Positions 3,865 through 14,214 of a DNA stretch of 64,000 bases are shown here, piece after piece (the first letter of the stretch is position 1; every line of letters begins with the position of its first letter). The DNA lies in contig CANQXS010000011.1 of the NCBI GenBank assembly GCA_947627875.1, forward strand, positions 1 through 64,000, written 5' to 3'. A program made the position numbers and the translations under genes. Below the pieces are notes generated by a model. The model was not told where the DNA came from. It did not search any database and saw only the letters and a program-made list of their open reading frames with translations. Source of the DNA: an uncultured Clostridia bacterium (GTDB taxonomy: Bacteria; Bacillota; Clostridia; Oscillospirales; Ruminococcaceae).

Positions 3865-4911
3865 ATGAAAAAAGCGCTCATCACCGGCATTACCGGTCAG
3901 GACGGCAGCTATCTTGCCGAATTTTTACTTGAAAAAGGCTATGAGGTTCACGGTATAACACGCCGCGCGTCTATCTCGAACACAGGCCGTATCGACCATA
4001 TAAAGGACAAGCTCACCCTGCACGACGGCGATCTGTCGGATAGCTCGTCGCTCATCAGAATCATCAGCGAGGTTCAGCCTGACGAGATATACAATTTAGC
4101 CGCGCAGAGCCACGTTCAGGTCAGTTTTGATGTACCCGAATATTCGGGTGATGTAGACGCGCTTGGCACTCTTCGCGTTCTTGAAGCAGTCTGCATACTC
4201 GGTCTCACGAAGAAAACAAAGGTGTATCAGGCTTCGACTTCCGAGCTTTACGGCAAGGTAGAGGAAGTCCCGCAGTCGGAAACCACGCCGTTCCACCCAT
4301 ACAGCCCTTATGCCGTCGCAAAACAGTATGGCTTCTGGATAACTAAGGAATACCGCGAGGCTTACGGAATGTTCGCCTGCAACGGGATTTTGTTCAACCA
4401 TGAATCCGAGCGCCGCGGTGAGAACTTCGTCACCCGAAAGATAACGATTGCGGCAGGACGTATCGCTGAGGGTTTGCAGGATCACCTTGAACTCGGCAAC
4501 TTAGACAGCCTGCGCGACTGGGGCTATGCAAAGGATTACGTCGAATGTATGTGGCTCATAATGCAGCAGGACAAGCCCGATGATTTCGTCATCGCTACCG
4601 GCATTCAGCATACCGTCCGTGATTTCACCGAGAGAGCATTTGCCGCTAACGGTATACATATACGCTGGGAGGGCAAAGGTCTTGACGAAAAGGGTTATGA
4701 CGAAAATACAGGAAAAATGCTTGTATGCGTGAATCCTGCGTGGTTCCGCCCGACCGATGTGGACAACCTGTTGGGCGACCCCACCAAAGCGAAAACCGTC
4801 CTCGGCTGGAATCCTCAGAAGACAAGCTATGAGGAACTCGTAAAGATAATGGCGGAGCATGACAGAAAAACGGCAAAGCACGAAAAAGCAGTTCTTGAAT
4901 CGGAAAGGTGA
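3865..4911 (+). CDS. gmd: GDP-mannose 4,6-dehydratase
   Basis: A 348-residue extended SDR. It has the [19 protein letters not shown]-binding N-terminus, the RRAS segment typical of Gmd, a catalytic Thr-Ser-Glu region (STSELYGK) and YAVAKQYG (YxxxK), and [16 protein letters not shown], a signature of Gmd. It converts GDP-D-mannose to GDP-4-keto-6-deoxy-D-mannose, the branch point to GDP-L-fucose, GDP-perosamine, GDP-colitose and related sugars. GDP-mannose itself can be made by the ManA, phosphomutase and ManC genes at 11-15 kb. The stop overlaps the region of the next start, consistent with one operon. Confidence 0.95.
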
Positions 4912-4916
4912 GATAT

Positions 4917-6122
4917 ATGAATAAAATCGGAGTAGGATATGCGTCGGTCACGGAAATCGAAAAGAAGTATGTAATGGACGCTTTGGACAGCCAGCGGCTT
5001 TCACAGGGCAAATACGTTGCAAAGTTTGAAAAAATGTTCGCGAATATGCATGGGCACAAGTATGGTGTAATGTGCAACAGCGGCACCAGCGCGCTGCACC
5101 TTGCAATTCTGGCGCTCAAAGAGAAGTATAACTGGGAGGACGACGCCGAGATACTTGTTCCCGCGATCACATTTATTGCAACCTCAAACTCGGTTCTCCA
5201 TGCCGGTTTAAAGCCTGTTTTCGTAGATGTAGATATAAAATCCTACAATATGAATCCCGACGAAACAGAGAAGCACATCACAGAAAAGACAAGGTGCATT
5301 ATTCCCGTACACTGTTTCGGAATGCCATGCGAGATGGACAAAATCAGTGAGATTGCAGAGAAGCATAATTTGAGGATTATAGAGGACTGCGCCGAGGCGC
5401 ATTTTGCGAAGATAAACGGCAAAACCGTCGGCAGCTTCAGCGACATAATGGCGTGCAGTACCTATGTTGCGCATACCTTAACTACGGGCGTCGGCGGGGT
5501 AATGTGTACAAGCGACCCCGAACTTTCCGAAATTCTCCGTTCCCTTGTCGCTCACGGAAGAGCCTGCACCTGCGAGAGGTGCATAGCTTCCGACGGCAAT
5601 CAGGTGTGCCCGAAGCGTCTTAAGACGGATATGGACAGACGGTTTACTTTCGTAAGGCTCGGCTATAGCTATCGCGTCGGCGAACTGGAAGGCGCTTTGG
5701 GCCTCGGGCAGCTTGAAAGAGTAGACGAGATAATGGGAGCAAGGCATAAAAACGCGGATTACCTCATCAGGGGACTTGAGCCCGTAGAAAAGTACATACA
5801 GCTACCGAGGCACCCCGAGAACATCGAGCACACATATATGATGTTCCCGATCCTTGTTAAGCCCGAAAGCCCTAAGTCAAAGAACGAGATAGTCAAGTAT
5901 CTTGAATCCCAAAATATTGAAACAAGACCGATGCTGCCGCTATTGAATCAGCCTATTTATAAGGAGATTTTCGGCGATATTGAGAAGGATTACCCGAATG
6001 CAGAGTATATTGACAATAACGGATTCTACATCGGTTGCCACCATGGGCTTGGAAAAGAGGAACTTGACCGTGAGATTGAAGCGTTGACGGAAATTCTCAC
6101 GGGGGGGGGTACAGCTATTTGA
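4917..6122 (+). CDS. E1/RfbH-type PMP-dependent 3-dehydratase (DegT/DnrJ family)
   Basis: A 401-residue DegT/DnrJ/EryC1/StrS-fold protein. The usual PLP-binding lysine is replaced by histidine (His186 in VAHTLTTGVGG), as in CDP-6-deoxy-hexulose 3-dehydrase E1 and in ColD. Just after it is a cysteine cluster (C217, C219, C222, C231; CTCERC), at the place where E1 binds a [2Fe-2S] cluster. So it should remove the 3-hydroxyl of a 4-keto-6-deoxy sugar rather than transaminate. Next to gmd the likely substrate is GDP-4-keto-6-deoxymannose. E1 enzymes need a reductase partner, and none is visible in the window. ATG 4917 is preferred (GGTGAG upstream) over GTG 4908. The C-terminus is set by a nine-G tract at 6101-6109. 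Confidence 0.8.
   Translation: MNKIGVGYASVTEIEKKYVMDALDSQRLSQGKYVAKFEKMFANMHGHKYGVMCNSGTSALHLAILALKEKYNWEDDAEILVPAITFIATSNSVLHAGLKPVFVDVDIKSYNMNPDETEKHITEKTRCIIPVHCFGMPCEMDKISEIAEKHNLRIIEDCAEAHFAKINGKTVGSFSDIMACSTYVAHTLTTGVGGVMCTSDPELSEILRSLVAHGRACTCERCIASDGNQVCPKRLKTDMDRRFTFVRLGYSYRVGELEGALGLGQLERVDEIMGARHKNADYLIRGLEPVEKYIQLPRHPENIEHTYMMFPILVKPESPKSKNEIVKYLESQNIETRPMLPLLNQPIYKEIFGDIEKDYPNAEYIDNNGFYIGCHHGLGKEELDREIEALTEILTGGGTAI
6101..6109 (+). repeat. Nine-G homopolymer at the 3' end of the 3-dehydratase gene
   Basis: Nine consecutive G lie four codons before the stop at 6120-6122. With eight G the frame would run on to a TGA at 6178-6180 that overlaps the ATG of the cupin gene, adding about 20 residues and creating an ATGA coupling. 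With ten G it ends in TAA six codons after the tract. The tract is thus a possible slippage site, or a sequencing homopolymer error. Confidence 0.7.
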
Positions 6123-6176: not shown

Positions 6177-6545
6177 ATGACAATTAAAACCTTATCTCCT
6201 GAATTTTTGCATACTGATGAGCGCGGAAGCCTTACTCAGCTTGTGAGCAGCGGATATTCGCAGATAAATATCTTGGTGTCCGAATCCGGGGTCACGCGCG
6301 GTGGGCATTTTCATAAGTACTGCCGTGAAGCTTTCTATGTTATAGAAGGTGCAGTGAGGGTCACTGCGGAAAGTGGCGGAGAATTTACCGAACAACTTTT
6401 TCGGCAGGGGGATTTCTTTGAGATATATCCCGGCACCGCTCATGAAATGTATTTCCCAGAGCGATGTATTATGGCGGTCTTGTATGACAGACCGGTAGAA
6501 ACGGAATTCGGAAAAGATATTTATGATCGAAAAATTATGAGGTGA
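6177..6545 (+). CDS. Cupin sugar-modifying protein (WxcM/FdtA-like)
   Basis: A 122-residue single cupin with GGHFHKYCREAFYVIEG and GTAHEMYF as the two metal/substrate-binding strands. It resembles small cupins of polysaccharide loci such as dTDP-sugar 3,4-ketoisomerases (FdtA, WxcM-like) and the CapF cupin half. The ATG at 6177 has GGAG at 6165-6168; a GTG at 6168 lies within that site. It sits between the 3-dehydratase and a GDP-fucose-synthase-like SDR, so action on a GDP-keto-deoxy sugar is plausible. The exact reaction cannot be told from sequence. Confidence 0.7.
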   Translation: MTIKTLSPEFLHTDERGSLTQLVSSGYSQINILVSESGVTRGGHFHKYCREAFYVIEGAVRVTAESGGEFTEQLFRQGDFFEIYPGTAHEMYFPERCIMAVLYDRPVETEFGKDIYDRKIMR

Positions 6546-6549
6546 AACC

Positions 6550-7482
6550 ATGCAGAAAAATTCAAAAATCTATGTTGCCGGACATCGCGGAATGGTTGGT
6601 TCGGCAATAGTCAGAGAGCTTGAAAGACAAGGATATACAAATATAGTCACAAGAACACATGCAGAACTTGACCTTTGCAGACAGGCTGATGTTGAGATAT
6701 TCTTTGAAGATGAAAGACCCGAATATGTCATAGACGCGGCAGCGCTTGTCGGAGGAATTAAAGCAAACAGCGAACGCCCTGCGGAATTTATGTACATAAA
6801 TATGCAGATCCAGCAAAACCTCATCTGGATGGCGTTCAAAAGCGATGTCAAAAAATTTCTGTTCCTCGGGAGCGCGTGTATGTATCCGAAAGAATGCCCC
6901 CAGCCGATGAAAGAGGAATATCTGCTTACAGGGCTGCCCGAAGTCACAAACGAAGGTTATGCGCTTGCAAAGGTCTGCGGAAGCCGTCTTTGCAGCTATA
7001 TAAGCCGCGAGTACGGCAGGAAATTTATCTCGGCGATACCCGCAAACTCTTACGGCATCGGTGACAGCTTCGATCCCGAACACAGCCACGTCATTCCTGC
7101 GCTCTTGATGAAGTATCACAAGGCAAAGGAAAACGGCGATAAAGAGGTTGTTCTCTGGGGAACAGGAGCCGCTAAGCGCGAGTTTATAAACAATAGGGAT
7201 ATTGCCTCGGCGTGCATTTTCCTGATGAACAATTATTCGTCTTCCGAGCCTATAAACGTTGGGACGGGCGAAGAAGTATCAATTATGGAGCTTTCGCAGA
7301 TGATTAAGCGGATCACCGGCTTTGAAGGCGAGATCGTCACCGACCCCACCAAGCCCGACGGCATGATGAGAAGAATCTGCGATAATTCAAAGATTTATGC
7401 TCTCGGGTGGAAGACGGAGGTTTCCCTGGAAGAGGGGATAAAGGAATTGAACGAATTATACTTAAAAACAATGGTGAAATGA
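6550..7482 (+). CDS. GDP-L-fucose synthase / GDP-L-colitose synthase-like epimerase-reductase
   Basis: A 310-residue extended SDR closely like Fcl/WcaG: GHRGMVGSAIVREL at the NADP site, GSACMYPKE with the epimerase cysteine, GYALAKVCG (YxxxK), and HSHVIPALL with the epimerase histidine. All residues for combined 3,5-epimerisation and 4-reduction appear intact. With only Gmd upstream, it would make GDP-L-fucose. After a 3-dehydratase, the homologous ColC makes GDP-L-colitose. The context here (gmd, 3-dehydratase, this gene) favours the dideoxy product but does not prove it. Confidence 0.85.
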   Translation: MQKNSKIYVAGHRGMVGSAIVRELERQGYTNIVTRTHAELDLCRQADVEIFFEDERPEYVIDAAALVGGIKANSERPAEFMYINMQIQQNLIWMAFKSDVKKFLFLGSACMYPKECPQPMKEEYLLTGLPEVTNEGYALAKVCGSRLCSYISREYGRKFISAIPANSYGIGDSFDPEHSHVIPALLMKYHKAKENGDKEVVLWGTGAAKREFINNRDIASACIFLMNNYSSSEPINVGTGEEVSIMELSQMIKRITGFEGEIVTDPTKPDGMMRRICDNSKIYALGWKTEVSLEEGIKELNELYLKTMVK

Positions 7483-7483
7483 A

Positions 7484-8335
7484 ATGAAAACAACGATCGA
7501 AGAATTGGAAAAAGCAGCATTTCAGATAAAGTGTGATTTACTTTATTTATGTTCTCAAAAAAGCATTCATATCGGCGGAGATTTGTCGATTGCGGATGTA
7601 ATGACGGTTCTCTGGCAATATCAAATAAAGTTTGACCCGAACAATTTAAAAGATGAGTCGAGAGATAGATTTATATTGTCAAAAGGACACGCGGCAGCCG
7701 TAACAAGCCTTAACCAATCTGCTATAGGCTGTTTTGACAAAAGCGATTTTTTTAATGAGTATGCAACTGACGGCGGACGCTTTTCTATGCATTCTTGTAA
7801 ATTAGTTAATCCATATGTAGAAGTTTCCACCGGAAGCCTTGGACATGGTTTATCGATCGGCTCAGGTATAGCAGAAGGATTGTACCGAAAGAATAATAGA
7901 AATAGCAGGGTTTATGTTGTTATGGGAGACGGCGAACAATGCGAGGGCTCCGTATGGGAAGCTGCTATGAATGCTGTACACTATAAGCTCGGGAATCTTA
8001 TAGGGATAATTGATCGCAACGGACTTGCCTCGGACGGGGGTATAGATGAGCTTACGGGTCTTGATGATATTGCCGAAAAGTACAGGACATTCGGGTGGAG
8101 AGTGGTTGAAATCAATGGCCATAACATCCAAGAAATTAAGAAGGCTTTTGACGAGCTGCCTCCGGCAGATTCGGAAAAGCCTACGGCTATTGTTTGTCAT
8201 ACCGTAAAAGGTCACGGCGTCAGCTTTATGGAAAACAACGTAAATTGGCATGCCGGTAAAATGAACGAGTCTCAATACGCGCAGGCAATGAGCGATATGA
8301 AAGGAGTGAAATGCCGTGGCCAAAAAATGGATTAG
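7484..8335 (+). CDS. Transketolase-like enzyme, N-terminal (TPP-binding) subunit
   Basis: A 283-residue protein matching the N-terminal third of transketolase: DRFILSKGHAAA, STGSLGHGLSIG and the TPP/Mg motif GDGEQCEGSVWEA followed by IDRNGL (DRNG where DNNG is common). It overlaps the C-terminal subunit gene by 20 bases, forming a split transketolase. Pairs like this inside polysaccharide loci are not needed for the pentose phosphate pathway. Here, between GDP-keto-deoxysugar enzymes and an SDR, it may transfer a two-carbon ketol unit to a sugar carbonyl to make a branched sugar; that is inference. Confidence 0.9.
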   Translation: MKTTIEELEKAAFQIKCDLLYLCSQKSIHIGGDLSIADVMTVLWQYQIKFDPNNLKDESRDRFILSKGHAAAVTSLNQSAIGCFDKSDFFNEYATDGGRFSMHSCKLVNPYVEVSTGSLGHGLSIGSGIAEGLYRKNNRNSRVYVVMGDGEQCEGSVWEAAMNAVHYKLGNLIGIIDRNGLASDGGIDELTGLDDIAEKYRTFGWRVVEINGHNIQEIKKAFDELPPADSEKPTAIVCHTVKGHGVSFMENNVNWHAGKMNESQYAQAMSDMKGVKCRGQKMD

Positions 8336-9263
8336 AGAAATCGTCGGGAATTATATGGTCAGGCTGGCAGAGCAAGACGCATCTATAGTTGCTATTTCTG
8401 CGGATCTTTTTCGTTCATGCAGGATGGAAAAGTTTATGGAAAAGTATCCCGACAGAATTTATAACGTAGGAATTGCCGAACAGAATATGGTCGGCTTTTC
8501 TGCGGGGCTTTGTCACGAAGGATATACCGCTTTTGCTTTTTCTATGGCCTCATTTTTAAGCATGCGCGCATGCGAACAGTGCCGCACCGATATAGCTTAT
8601 GCTGATCTGAAGGCAAGACTTATAGGGGTATATGCCGGAGTATCCGGCGGACTTGCAGGAGCGACGCATTGGAGCATTGAAGATTGCGGAATAATGTGTT
8701 CAATCCCGAATATGACGGTTTTGGAGCCGAGCGATGCAATTCAGGCGGAACACATGCTGCAGGCAACATTAAACTATAATAAACCGATATATATGCGTAT
8801 AAGCGTAGTTCCGTCGGAGGATATCTACAGCGATAACTATAAATATGAGATCGGAAAAGCGTCAGTTGCACGCGAAGGGAATGACGGCTGCATAATATCT
8901 TCAGGGGTAATAGTACAGTATGCGGTACAGGCGGCCGATGAAATATATAAAGAGTCCGGGAAAAAGATACGCGTCATTGATATGCACACAATTAAGCCCA
9001 TTGATAAAGAGGCGGTAATTGACGCCGCGCAAACCGGTAATGTTATAGTCGCACAAGATCACAATATAATAGGCGGGCTCGGCAGCATGGTTGCAACCGT
9101 CATTGCTGAAGAAAATCTTACTACAAAATTTGAAATAGCCGGCGTTAATGACGTGTTTGTTTCAATGGCAAGACCCGCTTACTTATATAATAAGTTTGGA
9201 CTAGATACAGAAGGTCTTAAAAAACGATTTTATAGGATGATTGGATATGCGGAGGGCATATGA
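8316..9263 (+). CDS. Transketolase-like enzyme, C-terminal subunit
   Basis: A 315-residue protein with the pyrimidine-binding and C-terminal transketolase domains: NVGIAEQNMVGFSAGL (the conserved TPP-activating Glu in AEQ), THWSIEDCGIM, EPSDAIQAE and AQDHNIIGGLGSMVA. The start is GTG at 8316. It overlaps both neighbours (20 bases with the N-terminal subunit, 4 bases ATGA with the next SDR), so the three genes are probably co-translated and act in one step of sugar synthesis. Confidence 0.9.
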   Translation: MAKKWIREIVGNYMVRLAEQDASIVAISADLFRSCRMEKFMEKYPDRIYNVGIAEQNMVGFSAGLCHEGYTAFAFSMASFLSMRACEQCRTDIAYADLKARLIGVYAGVSGGLAGATHWSIEDCGIMCSIPNMTVLEPSDAIQAEHMLQATLNYNKPIYMRISVVPSEDIYSDNYKYEIGKASVAREGNDGCIISSGVIVQYAVQAADEIYKESGKKIRVIDMHTIKPIDKEAVIDAAQTGNVIVAQDHNIIGGLGSMVATVIAEENLTTKFEIAGVNDVFVSMARPAYLYNKFGLDTEGLKKRFYRMIGYAEGI

Positions 9264-10336
9264 ATAAAGTATTGCTTGAAGATTTTGGAATTTTGATGTG
9301 CGAATACCCCGAATTGTTTGATTCCCTTAGAAACAAAACTGTTTTAGTCACGGGAGCAACAGGTCTTTTAACTACATATCTCTGCAAATGCATTTTGTCA
9401 TGCGCAAAAAAATACAATATACGACTGTATATGCAATGCCGCAGTCGGGAAAAAGCCGAGAAAATCTATAAAGACTATCTTGGCGGTGCTTATGCAGAAA
9501 TTCTTACATTCGACCTGATAAACGGGGATCTGCCCGATATAAAGTTTGACTATATAATTCATGCGGCAAGTATGGCAAGCACAAAGTTTTTTGTCGAAAC
9601 GCCTGTCGATGTCATTCTTCCGAACGTCGTTGGGACATACAGACTTTTAGAGCTTGCTAAGAAAACGGGGACGGACAAGTTTCTTTTCTTCAGCTCCAAC
9701 TCGATTTACGGTGAAGGAGGAACGGATAAAGAGGTCCTTTCCGAAAATGACTACGGGATCGTAGACCCGTTGGGCGATAGGGCAAGTTATATAGAATCCA
9801 AGAGGCTTGCCGAGCAGATGTGCAGAGCTTTCAATAAACAACATGGTGTTAATACCGATATCATAAGGATAACCCATACATACGGTCCCACGTTTGACAT
9901 TGAACATGATATGAGGATTCTGCCGAGGGTCATAAAGAATCTTTTATCCGAAAAAGAGATGGTAATGTATAAAGACCCTTCAGCCTCGGCGCAATATACA
10001 TATATCGCAGACATGATAGCGGCAGTTCTGTTTGTTCTTGTAAAAGGGGTTCCGGGAGAAGTATATAATGCCGGCGCGGACGAGCTTGTGAAGATTGACG
10101 ACGCCGTATCATGGATGATCAACGCCTCAGGGAAGACCAATCCGACGGTCAAACAGATAGATATTGATGAAAACTACAGCTTTTCAAAGGGAAAAGGCGT
10201 AAACGATAAAAAGGTATCAAACGAGAAGCTGAAGGCTCTCGGCTGGCGCCAACTTTATACCCCGAAAGATGGTTTTGAGAGAATGGTAAGGTGTTACTTG
10301 GAAGATAATAAAATTTCCGCGGGGGGGGGTATATAG
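9260..10336 (+). CDS. NAD-dependent epimerase/dehydratase-family SDR
   Basis: A 358-residue extended SDR: TVLVTGATGLLTTYL near residue 30, HAASMAS, FFSSNSIYGE and SYIESKRLAE (YxxxK). A 25-residue leader precedes the Rossmann fold. It does not match the Gmd or Fcl signatures and most resembles nucleotide-sugar epimerase/dehydratases found beside split transketolases. It could reduce or epimerise the product of the transketolase step. The last codons run through a nine-G tract and stop at 10334-10336; with eight G the frame would continue straight into the aldo/keto reductase. Confidence 0.8.
   Translation: MNKVLLEDFGILMCEYPELFDSLRNKTVLVTGATGLLTTYLCKCILSCAKKYNIRLYMQCRSREKAEKIYKDYLGGAYAEILTFDLINGDLPDIKFDYIIHAASMASTKFFVETPVDVILPNVVGTYRLLELAKKTGTDKFLFFSSNSIYGEGGTDKEVLSENDYGIVDPLGDRASYIESKRLAEQMCRAFNKQHGVNTDIIRITHTYGPTFDIEHDMRILPRVIKNLLSEKEMVMYKDPSASAQYTYIADMIAAVLFVLVKGVPGEVYNAGADELVKIDDAVSWMINASGKTNPTVKQIDIDENYSFSKGKGVNDKKVSNEKLKALGWRQLYTPKDGFERMVRCYLEDNKISAGGGI
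10321..10329 (+). repeat. Nine-G homopolymer joining SDR and aldo/keto reductase frames
   Basis: Nine G end the SDR gene (codons GCG GGG GGG GGT ATA TAG). Losing one G would read GCG GGG GGG GTA TAT AGT ATA GGC and continue into the conserved aldo/keto reductase N-terminus YSIGLGTGDL. The tract is therefore in a position to switch expression of, or fuse, the downstream enzyme. It could also be an assembly error in a homopolymer. Confidence 0.75.
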
Positions 10337-10382
10337 TATAGGCTTAGGAACGGGTGATCTGGATAAAGACCGTCCCGAAGAA

Positions 10383-11159
10383 ATGGCAGCACTTTTGGTT
10401 CAGGCGATCCTCATCGGCTATCGCTTTATAGATACCGCCTATTCATACGGTACGGAGAAAATCGTCGGGGCCGCGCTTAAACTTCTTTTTGATGCAGGAA
10501 TGCGAAGAGATGAGGTGTTTATTCAGACAAAGTTCTATCCCGTAATGCCGTATGACGGCGAATCAGTTCGTAAGCAGTTAGAAGAAAGCTTGCAAAATCT
10601 GGGACTTGATTATGTAGACAGCTATCTGATTCACCAACCCGTTCCGAGATATTCAGAGCTTGAATATACCGAGAGAAATATTTCCGTATGGAAAGAGATG
10701 GAGAAATTACGCGCGGAGGGAAAAGTGAAGCACATCGGAGTTTCAAATTTCCTCGAGAGGCATATTCTTCAGCTCACCGAAGCCTGCAACACCGTACCTG
10801 AGATAAATCAGCTTGAAATTAATCCCCAATTTCAGCAGAGAGGTTTGGCGGAATTTTGCAGGAAAAAGGGAATAGCTGTGCAAAGCTGGGGTCCGCTTTC
10901 CGTAACAGATGAAGATGTACAATCCGCACTACAGTTAATTGCAGATAAATACAGCGTGTCAAAAGCACAGGTTGCACTTAAATGGAATATACAGATCGGC
11001 AACACACCTATTTGCTTTTCAAAGAATATTCATCATCTGATCGAGAACCGAAAGCTTGATTTTGAGCTTTCAGATGAGGACTTGGAGGCAATACGGATGT
11101 GTAACAGTGCTGATGCTCATAGAAAAACGTGGTGGTATCCACGCCAACAGATGTATTAA
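10383..11159 (+). CDS. Aldo/keto reductase lacking a start codon in frame before its first motif
   Basis: From the first in-frame ATG, 258 residues match the aldo/keto reductase barrel: GYRFIDTAYSYGTE with catalytic Asp and Tyr, the catalytic-Lys strand (VFIQTKFYP), the His strand (SYLIHQPVP), and GVSNF. The family N-terminus, IGLGTGDLDKDRPEE, is encoded just upstream in the same frame (10338-10382), so the true protein begins earlier. That frame is open back to 10290 but has no ATG, GTG or TTG. It is one base out of register with the preceding SDR and with a TTG at 10298, across the nine-G tract. The gene is thus silent, truncated, or expressed only after a one-base slip. Its likely role is carbonyl reduction in the polysaccharide sugar pathway. 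Confidence 0.75.
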   Translation: MAALLVQAILIGYRFIDTAYSYGTEKIVGAALKLLFDAGMRRDEVFIQTKFYPVMPYDGESVRKQLEESLQNLGLDYVDSYLIHQPVPRYSELEYTERNISVWKEMEKLRAEGKVKHIGVSNFLERHILQLTEACNTVPEINQLEINPQFQQRGLAEFCRKKGIAVQSWGPLSVTDEDVQSALQLIADKYSVSKAQVALKWNIQIGNTPICFSKNIHHLIENRKLDFELSDEDLEAIRMCNSADAHRKTWWYPRQQMY

Positions 11160-11179: not shown

Positions 11180-12889
11180 ATGGAAATTGCTGATGCGTTT
11201 CATTTTTGGAAAACTGATAAATTTTTTGACATTGCAACACGTTCGGAATTGTCTGCGCTGGATTCCGTTAAGGACTCCGCAGAGATAGAAGACCGCTTCT
11301 ACCGCGACCTTGAATTCGGCACTGGCGGTCTGCGCGGAGTTATGGGCGCGGGGACGAACCGTATGAATAAATACACCGTCGGGAAGGCGACTCAAGGTCT
11401 CGGCAGATATCTTCTTGATACGTTCGGCGCGGACGAATGCCGCTCGCGCGGCGTTGTCGTAGGCTATGATACCCGAAACAACAGCAAATTCTTTGCCGAT
11501 GTGACGGCTTCTGTTCTGAGCGGTATGGGCATACGCGTTTGCGTTCACTCGAGCGCAAGACCGACCCCGCAGCTCAGCTTCTCGGTAAAGTATTTGAATG
11601 CCTTAGCCGGCGTCGTCATAACGGCGTCGCATAATCCGAAGGAATATAACGGCTATAAGGTATATGACGAATACGGTTGCCAGCTTGTGCCGGACAAGGC
11701 GGAGCGCGTCATAGAGTATGTGAATGCGGTAGATGATTACGGCAAAATCGGCTTTAACGGTGATAAATCTCTTATTGAAACGGTCGATGTGACCGATGAA
11801 TTCGTAAACGCCGCTCTCGGGCAAAGCCGCTATGGCGACGCTGCCGCAAAAGCCGCTTTGCGAGTCGTATATACACCGCTTCACGGAACGGGAAATGTTC
11901 CGGTTGCGGCTGTTCTTGAACGCGACGGATTTGTAAATACGGATAAAGTTGCAGAACAGACCGTTCCCGACGGCAGTTTCCCGACGGTCGTGTCTCCGAA
12001 TCCCGAGGATAGGCGCGCGCTCGAAATGGGCATCGCTCAAGCGGCGAAAACCGATGCGGATATTGTGCTCGGCACCGACCCGGACTGCGACCGCGTGGGT
12101 ATAGCAGTGAGAACGGATAAGGGTAATTACCGTCTTATGACCGGAAATCAGGTCGGCGCGCTGCTTATGAATTTTATTCTTAGGCATACGGATCTAAGCA
12201 AATATGACCGACCCGCAGTCGTAAAGACAGTCGTAACTTCTGAGCTCGGCGCTGAAATTGCGCGAAAAAACGGCATTTCTGTTTTTTCAACGCTTACCGG
12301 TTTCAAATTTATCGGGGAGAAGATAACGCAGTTTGAGCAGGCAAAACAAGGCCCCGAAAAAGAGCGCGACTATGATTTTCTGTTCGGATATGAGGAATCG
12401 TACGGATATCTTGCAGGCACTCACGCGCGCGACAAGGACGCGGTCGTCGCTTCCGTTCTTATATGCGAAATGGCTGCGGAGGCAAAGCGGGGCGGCAAGA
12501 CTCTCGTTGACGAGATCAATGAAATATACGCAGAATACGGATATTACCTTGACGCGCTGGACAGCTTTACCTTAAAGGGCAAGGACGGTCTTGAAAGGAT
12601 CGCGTCTATGATGAGGCAGCTTCGCAGCGGCGGCAAGCCTTTTGAGGATATAAAGTGCGTTATCGACTACAGCGTTCCCGTTTCTGCGGAAGCCGGCTTC
12701 GGCGAATTGCCGGCGTCGGATGTCCTCAAATATATCCTGAGCGACGGCTCATGGATAGCAATACGCCCTTCCGGAACGGAGCCGAAGATAAAGATATATT
12801 ACAGCATAAAAGGAAAGGACCACGGCGCCGCGGAAGAAAAGCTCGAAGAAATTCGTCGCATATTGAAGGCAGCGCTGAATCTGAATTGA
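11180..12889 (+). CDS. Alpha-phosphohexomutase (phosphoglucomutase/phosphomannomutase)
   Basis: A 569-residue phosphohexomutase: GTGGLRGVMGAG at the N-terminus, the phosphoserine loop VVITASHNPKEYNGYKVY, the metal loop GTDPDCDRVGIA, the sugar-specificity loop FGYEESYGYL and the phosphate loop RPSGTEPKIK. Length and motifs fit the PgcA-type phosphoglucomutase class of Firmicutes. Its place directly before manC and manA suggests it supplies mannose-1-phosphate, although glucose-1-phosphate is equally possible. It starts 20 bases after the aldo/keto reductase. Confidence 0.9.
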   Translation: MEIADAFHFWKTDKFFDIATRSELSALDSVKDSAEIEDRFYRDLEFGTGGLRGVMGAGTNRMNKYTVGKATQGLGRYLLDTFGADECRSRGVVVGYDTRNNSKFFADVTASVLSGMGIRVCVHSSARPTPQLSFSVKYLNALAGVVITASHNPKEYNGYKVYDEYGCQLVPDKAERVIEYVNAVDDYGKIGFNGDKSLIETVDVTDEFVNAALGQSRYGDAAAKAALRVVYTPLHGTGNVPVAAVLERDGFVNTDKVAEQTVPDGSFPTVVSPNPEDRRALEMGIAQAAKTDADIVLGTDPDCDRVGIAVRTDKGNYRLMTGNQVGALLMNFILRHTDLSKYDRPAVVKTVVTSELGAEIARKNGISVFSTLTGFKFIGEKITQFEQAKQGPEKERDYDFLFGYEESYGYLAGTHARDKDAVVASVLICEMAAEAKRGGKTLVDEINEIYAEYGYYLDALDSFTLKGKDGLERIASMMRQLRSGGKPFEDIKCVIDYSVPVSAEAGFGELPASDVLKYILSDGSWIAIRPSGTEPKIKIYYSIKGKDHGAAEEKLEEIRRILKAALNLN

Positions 12890-12903
12890 AGAGGGGCAGG
12901 CAT

Positions 12904-14214
12904 ATGAATATAGTTTTACTTTCGGGAGGCAGCGGAAAACGCCTATGGCCTCTATCCAACGACATACGCAGCAAGCAGTTCATCAAGCTGTTCAAAAACG
13001 GAGAAGAGTATGAGTCGATGGTTCAGCGCGTTTACAGGCAGATAACTACCGTCGATCCGAATGCCAACGTAACGATAGCTACAAGTAAATCACAGGCGAG
13101 CGCGATTAAGAATCAACTCGGCGAGAAGGTATCTATATGCGTTGAGCCCTGCCGCCGCGATACTTTTCCGGCGATAGTCCTTGCTGCCGCATATCTGCAC
13201 GACGAGCTCGGCGTAAATGGGAACGAATCGGTCGTCGTGTGTCCGGTCGATCCGTATGTTGACAACACATACTATGAAGCAGTCGGCAAGCTGCAAAAGC
13301 TGGCAGAGCAGGGGAACGCAAACATAACGCTTATGGGCATTGAGCCAACATACCCGAGTGAGAAATACGGGTACATAATCCCCGAAAGCGGAGAAAATGT
13401 CAGCAAGGTTCGCGAATTCAAGGAAAAGCCCGACGTTGAGACGGCGAAAAAGTATATAGCGCAAAACGCCCTTTGGAATGCCGGCATTTTTGCGATGAAG
13501 CTCGGATATCTACTCGAAAAAGCTCATGGCTTGATAGAATTCGACGATTACCGCGACCTTTTCGGAAAGTACGATACGCTTGAAAAAATAAGCTTCGACT
13601 ATGCCGTGGTCGAGAATGAGCAGTCGATACAGGTCCTTCGCTACGGCGGCTCCTGGAAGGACGTCGGAACCTGGAATATGATGGCTGAGGTAATGGCGGA
13701 TCCCGCAAAGGGGAATGTTATCCTCGACGAAACGTGTGTGAACACGAACGTAGTAAACGAGCTGAACATACCGGTGCTTTGCATAGGGTGCAAAGATATG
13801 ATAATAGCGGCAAGCGGCGACGGGATACTTATTTCCGACAAAGAGCGCAGCGCTTATATGAAGCCTTATGTTGAAAAAATCGAAACTGCGGCTATGTATG
13901 CCGAAAAATCGTGGGGCACATATACGGTCATAGACGTTCAGCCGGGCTCGATGACTGTCAAAGTCTCAATGAGAGCGGGAGAGCATATGAGCTATCATAT
14001 GCACAACTACCGCGAAGAGGTCTGGACGGTCGTTTCGGGCGAAGGCAAAGCCGTTGTCGACGGAATGGAGCAGTATCTCCGCACCGGCGACGTTATCACG
14101 ATCGCCGCCGGTTGCAAGCATATGGTAGAGGCCGTAACTGCGCTCGATATAGTTGAAGTACAGCTCGGGGACGAGATAAGCGTAAGCGACAAGATAAAGT
14201 TCGATGCGGAGTGA
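12904..14214 (+). CDS. manC: Mannose-1-phosphate guanylyltransferase with C-terminal cupin
   Basis: A 436-residue protein. The nucleotidyltransferase signature LSGGSGKRLWPLSN is at the very N-terminus, with QFIKLF and FKEKPDVETAKKY later; a ManC/type II mannose-6-phosphate isomerase-like cupin (GEHMSYHMHNYREEVWTV) fills the last 120 residues. It makes GDP-mannose from mannose-1-phosphate and GTP. The frame is open upstream to 12655, but ATG 12904 is the start: GAGGGGC lies just before it and the GSGKR loop must be N-terminal. It feeds Gmd at 3.9 kb. Confidence 0.9.
   Translation: MNIVLLSGGSGKRLWPLSNDIRSKQFIKLFKNGEEYESMVQRVYRQITTVDPNANVTIATSKSQASAIKNQLGEKVSICVEPCRRDTFPAIVLAAAYLHDELGVNGNESVVVCPVDPYVDNTYYEAVGKLQKLAEQGNANITLMGIEPTYPSEKYGYIIPESGENVSKVREFKEKPDVETAKKYIAQNALWNAGIFAMKLGYLLEKAHGLIEFDDYRDLFGKYDTLEKISFDYAVVENEQSIQVLRYGGSWKDVGTWNMMAEVMADPAKGNVILDETCVNTNVVNELNIPVLCIGCKDMIIAASGDGILISDKERSAYMKPYVEKIETAAMYAEKSWGTYTVIDVQPGSMTVKVSMRAGEHMSYHMHNYREEVWTVVSGEGKAVVDGMEQYLRTGDVITIAAGCKHMVEAVTALDIVEVQLGDEISVSDKIKFDAE

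Follow-up and report, generated by a model that had tools for sequence, protein, structure and literature searches.

Campylobacter, Helicobacter and Neisseria are well known for phase variation at poly-G tracts. The tract-bearing genes of Campylobacter jejuni are of kinds similar to those discussed below (surface sugars and DNA modification), poly-G tracts occupy promoter spacers of porA and other genes in Neisseria, and the switching of cwpV in Clostridioides difficile is a DNA inversion. Bifidobacterium breve, in which a G-tract switch has also been described, is a Gram-positive gut commensal. The subject of this analysis is a tract of nine Gs (G9) at the junction of a short-chain dehydrogenase/reductase (SDR) gene and an aldo/keto reductase (AKR) gene in DNA from an uncultured Clostridia bacterium of the Ruminococcaceae (contig CANQXS010000011.1, positions 1 to 64,000). 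This whole 64,000-nucleotide stretch is referred to as the window, and the features located in it by coordinates lie on its forward strand. We consider it probable that the tract is a slipped-strand, phase-variable switch operating at the DNA level, ON at eight or eleven Gs and with an SDR-AKR fusion enzyme as its output.

Like the genome to which the window belongs, C. jejuni carries tens of G tracts per genome, both intragenic and intergenic (PMC4965091). Campylobacter tracts are found in open reading frames (ORFs), promoters and gene ends, and C. jejuni is described as lacking functional mismatch repair (PMC8355987). The system described here differs from that of C. jejuni in its Clostridia-like host, the presence of mutS1, the oriented flanks of its tracts and the enzyme-enzyme fusion at the junction. 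Helicobacter canadensis has intragenic, promoter and 3'-end homopolymer tracts, nearly all of them poly-G in the table rows seen; its reads show ranges of tract length and its gene-end tracts change the C-terminus of the product (PMC2823697), whereas at the present junction the changed C-terminus can amount to an entire second enzyme. The pili of B. breve are switched ON and OFF by replication slippage in an intragenic G-tract, as measured by deep sequencing (PMC9187656). That switch belongs to another phylum and acts on pilus genes, not on sugar enzymes. The poly-G promoter spacer of Neisseria fHbp (PMC8553145) is comparable to G tracts between the -35 and -10 elements at three of the loci collected here (L020, L099 and L142), but not to the junction tract of the window.

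Within the Bacillota, phase variation is described for C. difficile cwpV (PMC2784873) and for Staphylococcus aureus (PMC7911514). No paper on poly-G contingency loci in Clostridia was found among the matches listed in a search of titles and abstract starts of the open-access literature. A preliminary description of the window had held that homopolymer switching is not usual in Clostridia; this fits the literature matches listed, but not the many tracts held by the genus in question. Although switches of this type are known, the literature matches listed showed neither this lineage nor an enzyme fusion as output nor an oriented context.

The SDR gene (positions 9260-10336) matches the NAD-dependent epimerase/dehydratase family (PF01370, E-value: 2.4e-41). 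As assembled, it encodes a product of 358 aa with the C-terminus ...EDNKISAGGGI, and its stop codon (10334-10336) lies four bases past the G9 tract, which was read directly at 10321-10329. The tract is preceded by an A/T patch plus C (aaaatttccgc, 10310-10320) that matches the common tract context described below, and it is followed immediately by TA (10330-10331). The AKR frame (10290-11159) contains the tract: it opens directly after a TAA codon at 10287-10289, and none of the 31 codons from 10290 to its first ATG (10383) is ATG, GTG or TTG. Three of these codons are ATA, and a rare non-standard start could conceivably be used. The conserved AKR N-terminus (GLGTGDLDKDRPEE, 10341-10382), which is also marked by its substitution pattern in six loci, is encoded upstream of the first ATG, and the ORF that begins at this ATG (10383-11159) matches PF00248 from position 23, without the first 22 profile positions. 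The preliminary description had noted both that the nine-G tract leaves the AKR out of frame with any start codon and that the conserved N-terminus precedes the first in-frame ATG, and both observations hold. Its suggestion of an internal start at a TTG (10298) was not borne out, as this is an ordinary SDR-frame codon with no sign of being a start; it was given no further test.

G or C runs of four, five, six, seven, eight and nine bases number 285, 46, 4, 0, 0 and 2 in the window, and the G9 tracts exceed the expectation from this decay in run length and are more than chance. The best explanation for the assembled window is that it represents the OFF (G9) state at the SDR-AKR junction. A promoter reading of the junction tract was dropped, as its best fit to -35 and -10 elements has mismatches at 4 of 12 positions. 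A role of the G run as a Shine-Dalgarno sequence for a non-AUG AKR start was likewise rejected, since the six loci compared below share no start codon at a constant spacing downstream of the tract.

A scan of genome contigs for the AKR gave 13 loci, and the junction was examined in L042-L048 (L049-L054 were left out). One genome was used per species, and all tract lengths were taken from assemblies. Five of these loci (L042-L046), from records of uncultured Clostridia or Lachnospiraceae bacteria (isolates 'Lapin'), also have the junction tract, with lengths of G8, G7, G7, G7 and G7, respectively; together with the window they make up the six tract loci. TA follows the tract in 6/6. When each locus was read with a tract length (n) of 6 to 12 Gs, SDR and AKR fell into one frame at n = 8 and 11 in every case, and at other lengths the SDR stopped 0 to 34 nt past the tract. 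The preliminary description had expected eight Gs to carry the SDR into the AKR, and this is the behaviour of all six loci. In L042 the assembled G8 tract gives the joined state, an SDR-AKR fusion whose length is 628 to 638 aa according to the start used, with nearly complete domains (PF01370 positions 1-239 of 240 and PF00248 positions 2-290 of 291). The slippage switch or fusion proposed earlier is thus supported by other tract lengths in five homologs and by one encoded fusion, the outcome of the homolog comparison that had been suggested with it.

The tract starts in codon phase 2 in three loci and in phase 0 in the other three, yet the joining length is still 8 modulo 3, and the gap between the tract and the GLGTG motif is 11, 2, 4, 4, 11 or 10 nt across the six loci. 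TA is conserved whichever of two codon phases it falls in (as GTA in three loci, as GGT-A in three), and protein sequence alone therefore does not explain it. Among 396 genomes of the family, no AKR relative with more than 43% identity was present among the matches listed, the window itself aside, and no relatives of the AKR or of the sugar transferase discussed below were found in viral contigs. In L042-L046 the SDR-AKR pair adjoins other upstream genes than in the window; from its gene neighbourhoods, the pair seems to form a portable unit. L044 also carries, immediately before its SDR, a second AKR-like gene (1996-2862, judged by its sequence) that has its own G7 tract (2021) just before an IGFGTFG motif, with a short leader in place of the SDR.

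Selection on the AKR frame was assessed in the 15 pairs of the six tract loci. The 14 codons between the tract and the first ATG (GLGTGDLDKDRPEE in the window) show 20, 15 and 113 substitutions at codon positions 1, 2 and 3, compared with 572, 325 and 1927 in the AKR body, so that third positions account for 113/148 and 1927/2824 of the changes, respectively. This third-position-dominated pattern indicates that the pre-ATG stretch is translated in the AKR frame, and its codons are under purifying selection as AKR protein. The AKR C-terminus is intact in 6/6 tract loci. In the window and in L045, ribosomes using standard start codons would be able to enter the pre-ATG stretch only via the tract.

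At n = 8 (or 11), a ribosome that has translated the SDR would cross the tract in the AKR frame and produce a single SDR-AKR protein. At n = 7, 9 or 10, the SDR would stop 4-9 bases past the tract and the AKR, lacking a standard start, would not be made. The junction would yield either a bifunctional enzyme or the SDR with no AKR, and switching of this form is directly testable. The fusion is favoured over a stand-alone AKR. We infer that DNA slippage in the living population is the source of the length changes and that the fusion is the active form. Cells would thereby differ in the sugar modifications that they make, and the gene content of the operon suggests that the product may be a surface sugar.

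A second G9 tract in the same operon (6101-6109) lies near the 3' end of a DegT/DnrJ/EryC1 aminotransferase gene (4908-6122; PF01041, E-value: 6.6e-95), upstream of a cupin gene (6177-6545; PF14667/PF07883) that is read here from ATG 6177 (GTG 6168 in the ORF list). With 8 or 11 Gs, the aminotransferase TGA (6178-6180) overlaps the cupin ATG as ATGA, while with 9 or 10 Gs the aminotransferase stop begins 11 or 16 nt past the tract. A change of length thus alters the frame outcome at both tracts of the operon. The homologous tract in another genome (L091) is G10 and shows the same frame behaviour, with ATGA at n = 8 or 11 and a flank three bases longer. By the principle proposed for the junction, 8 or 11 Gs would couple translation of the aminotransferase and the cupin through the ATGA overlap, and at 9 or 10 Gs the aminotransferase would stop within 18 bases past the tract; the tract should therefore switch translational coupling from the first gene to the second. 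Translational coupling is also suspected for cj0045-cj0044 of C. jejuni, in which a 3'-end tract places the long-frame ORF in overlap with the next gene (PMC8355987). The 6101 tract is similar in that one frame runs up to the start of the following gene and the others terminate before it, and dissimilar in its exact ATGA overlap, which is kept in L091.

Of 28 gene-end tracts, 12 have an offset -1 stop-start overlap with the next ORF in some frame, five of them in the assembled state; in L009 the overlap is with the remainder of the same gene, and in L135 it is present in two frames. As a control, 4/51 true ORF ends in the window show an overlap of this kind, or 11/51 when three frames are allowed as for the tracts. 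With this three-frame control, enrichment was not established, and general stop-start coupling at 3'-end tracts is retained as a lead only. The five overlap pairs scanned with Pfam are DegT-RmlC type, SDR-SDR (twice), cytidylyltransferase-cytidylyltransferase and HMGL-like-cytidylyltransferase, suggesting mostly nucleotide-sugar type genes.

The window's own genome (G000; 2.57 Mb in 50 contigs) contains 26 overlapping G9 matches, corresponding to 18 tracts of G9 to G12. These 18 tracts of at least nine Gs, for which no TA was demanded, form our unbiased set; stretches from other genomes were picked by a pattern ending in TA, and their TA fraction is thus selected. Many G000 tracts sit in promoter spacers or in genes of kinds that may be typical of phase variation, such as sugar transferases, acyltransferases, subtilases and a DNA methylase; slipped-strand loci usually, though not by strict definition, affect genes exposed to host or phage. 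When 20 pieces beside 15 other G000 tracts were scanned against Pfam, 11 were matched and 9 were not. The matches comprise a C5 cytosine DNA methylase, two subtilases, a LytTR response regulator, two acyltransferases, a LacAB/RpiB isomerase, a MurT ligase and tandem bacterial sugar transferases. At L015, the match is to a signal peptidase II-like frame that lies on the other strand, which indicates that the Gs of a tract are not always on the coding strand. With 18 tracts of at least nine Gs in a single genome, mutS1 retained, a DNA methylase gene that bears a tract and a sugar operon that has two, this Clostridia-like genus implies that clonal diversity in such bacteria may depend on tracts that are flattened by assemblies and split by gene callers. 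In the methylase gene (L009, about position 4001, contig C2), the frame is broken at a G9 tract: the piece before the tract matches profile positions 1-110 of 324, and the piece after it has no match. A phase-variable methylome is possible from this arrangement. The MurT-type ligase gene (L014, about position 4001, contig C9) has an internal G9 tract and is split in the assembly.

Tract length differs among relatives or copies at several sites (9/8/7 at SDR-AKR, 10/9/9/11 in the sugar transferases and 8/9 at an SDR-SDR junction). The tandem sugar transferases (L019, about position 4001) match PF02397 on both sides of the tract and form one frame at the G10 of the window's own genome, while the homologs L090, L098 and L150, with near-identical flanks and 82.9-92.2% identity, have G9, G9 and G11 and are split. 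The SDR-SDR junction occurs in one genome with G8 and with G9 at 95.7% identity; the genome bin may contain a second copy of the junction or a second strain. The homologous DegT tracts have G9 and G10. A larger set of 134 tracts of at least seven Gs, from seven sampled genomes and the SDR-AKR loci and mostly chosen by TA, comprises 39 in mid-gene or at junctions, 36 near gene starts, 24 near gene ends, 15 that are promoter-like and 20 others. Where frames are clear, the joined state is assembled in 15/28 mid-gene or junction tracts (13 are split), 12/32 5'-end tracts and 6/21 3'-end tracts, compared with one third at random. A promoter fit with at most three mismatches was obtained for 15/134 tracts and for 22/2584 short runs. 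In L121 (G022), three similar units in a row carry an identical G9 tract and flank (tracts at 2000, 3213 and 4766).

The long tracts have an oriented context (A/T patch, C, Gn, TA) that is not found at short G runs. C precedes all 18 G000 tracts, TA follows 14 of them (TT 2, AT 1, AC 1) and the A/T fraction at positions -10 to -5 is 0.80; the corresponding values for runs of three to six Gs are 41-48%, 0-7% and 0.40-0.46. In 31 genomes of the genus, GGGGGGGGTA gave 211 matches versus 10 for the reversed pattern, with 26/31 genomes matched (hand sums). Matches to GGGGGGGTA versus control were 18:1, 18:1, 22:5, 20:5, 22:2 and 30:3 in the genomes of L042-L046 and L048, respectively, and 2:6 in that of L047, which thus has no excess of oriented tracts. 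At the family level (247 genomes), GGGGGGGGGTA gave 214 matches versus 19, with an uneven spread over 67 matched genomes (hand sums). The same pattern in 248 other genomes of the phylum gave about 95 versus about 57 in the control (hand tally), and the orientation bias outside the lineage is weak. The result of a phylum scan with CGGGGGGGGTA, which demanded exactly eight Gs and so missed longer tracts, was not used. Beyond the family the preceding C is frequently absent: it is present in 1/4 cases in G451 and 0/3 in G485, and, within the family, in 2/6 in G199.

Frames that are OFF close a median of 11.5 nt after the tract, versus 39 nt in the control (62 tracts, partly selected for TA), and 8.5 nt after the 11 G000 tracts chosen without TA; a flank that closes OFF frames fast is part of the explanation of the context. 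The oriented flanks also raise the question of what makes or keeps the tracts. It is conceivable, if rather doubtful, that the tract is a defined oriented element (A/T patch, a few bases, C, G8-12, TA) recognized by a hypothetical factor of these Clostridia lineages that makes or maintains length changes, which would amount to programmed local hypermutation in promoters, gene starts, enzyme junctions and gene ends. In one further genus of the family (G091 and G183), 11/12 tracts are promoter-like by eye, with TTGACA or TTGACG, about six to nine bases, G9-11 and TATAAT or a close match. Among the tracts seen there (L196-L200 in G183 and L210-L215 in G091), G9-11 runs are mainly promoter spacers. 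At three places in G131 (L201-L203), a nearly identical repeated element has the palindrome taccaaaatttggtac before the tract and tactagtagatata after it. In three genomes (L171-L173; G013, G007 and G014, respectively), a G7/G8 tract is followed by ta(c/g)acggctccgccgtaaaa, a small inverted repeat.

Several observations weigh against a phase-variable switch at the SDR-AKR junction or against its wider setting. Every n is an assembly value from a region that is hard to sequence, and several homologous tract pairs are equal in n. Four of the six SDR-AKR loci are at G7; slow slippage is expected at this length, and the tract could be fixed there. MutS1 scores over its cut-off in 35/38 genomes, including that of the window; loss of mutS1 was accordingly rejected as the cause of the tracts (mutL was not searched for). 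The six loci are related, so that their shared frame at n = 8 does not represent six independent events. In L043 and L044 an AKR-frame ATG or TTGs are present just before the tract, and a TTG is present inside the pre-ATG stretch of L046, making a separate AKR start possible at these loci. The preliminary description had regarded related loci with a normal AKR start and no G run as evidence against its proposal: 5/7 junctions keep the tract, but the more distant L047 (AKR 72% identical) and L048 (57%) have none and carry ATG codons well before the conserved N-terminus. For L047, the ATG start without a tract, in a genome with no excess of oriented tracts, speaks in favour of the switch, but the AKR of L048 has this normal start even though its genome is rich in oriented tracts. 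At gene ends, the stop-start overlap in 12/28 tracts compares with 11/51 in the like-for-like control (Fisher p = 0.07). Finally, mRNA slippage would also produce the same picture of joined and split frames.

This last point belongs to the main rival explanation, fixed-length recoding, in which transcriptional slippage or ribosomal frameshifting on the G run would allow a single gene to yield the SDR as well as its fusion with the AKR. The preserved frame relation in six loci, four of them at G7, would agree with recoding, and the SDR frame of L045 reads G-GGG-GGG, an ideal -1 slippery heptamer. However, only one of the four G7 loci is in this ideal phase, two tract phases occur overall and the shift that is needed varies (-1 type at n = 7, +1 type at n = 9, none at n = 8), so that no single ribosomal signal fits; a programmed ribosomal frameshift with one signal was rejected on these grounds. 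RNA slippage in both directions stays compatible with the varying shifts, but the same lineage has promoter-spacer tracts, where recoding is meaningless, and near-identical copies differ in tract length. We therefore judge recoding to be unlikely.

Homopolymers are error-prone in sequencing, and the G9 of the window could be an assembly or sequencing error for a true G8 that encodes a constitutive fusion. L042, with G8 and a fusion, would fit such an error, as would the relatives' contigs that start at the tract. Six contigs (G022:C33, G024:C19, G252:C18, G252:C19, G423:C192 and G425:C130) begin with a G tract at base 1 or 2, as though the assemblies had broken at it; either a mixture of lengths or poor sequencing of such sites would account for this. 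The exact n in the window may indeed be wrong, but the tract recurs in six assemblies, and errors would not yield oriented flanks, promoter-spacer placement or fast OFF-frame stops, all of which makes a constitutive G8 fusion quite improbable. Still harder to sustain is the idea that the AKR is a decaying gene and its tract functionless. The window copy does lack a standard start codon, as decay would predict; against this stand the third-position-dominated changes in both the AKR body and the pre-ATG stretch, the intact C-terminus in all six loci and the conservation of the tract, and we consider decay highly improbable. A DNA-level switch that joins and separates the two enzymes remains the reading that we prefer.

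The remaining genes around the two tracts form the context of what is read here as a nucleotide-sugar operon. The cupin gene is followed by a GDP-L-fucose synthase-like SDR gene (6550-7482), which matches NF047922 with 409.8 bits, under the cut-off of 500 for that model. Downstream of the AKR are a phosphoglucomutase/phosphomannomutase gene (11180-12889; PF02878-PF02880) and a mannose-1-phosphate guanylyltransferase-type gene (12895-14214; PF00483 and PF01050). Between the fucose synthase-like gene and the SDR of the junction, transketolase is encoded by two genes (7484-8335, PF00456; 8316-9263, PF02779 and PF02780), a split that in the window (7484-9263) lies within an operon of GDP-sugar type.

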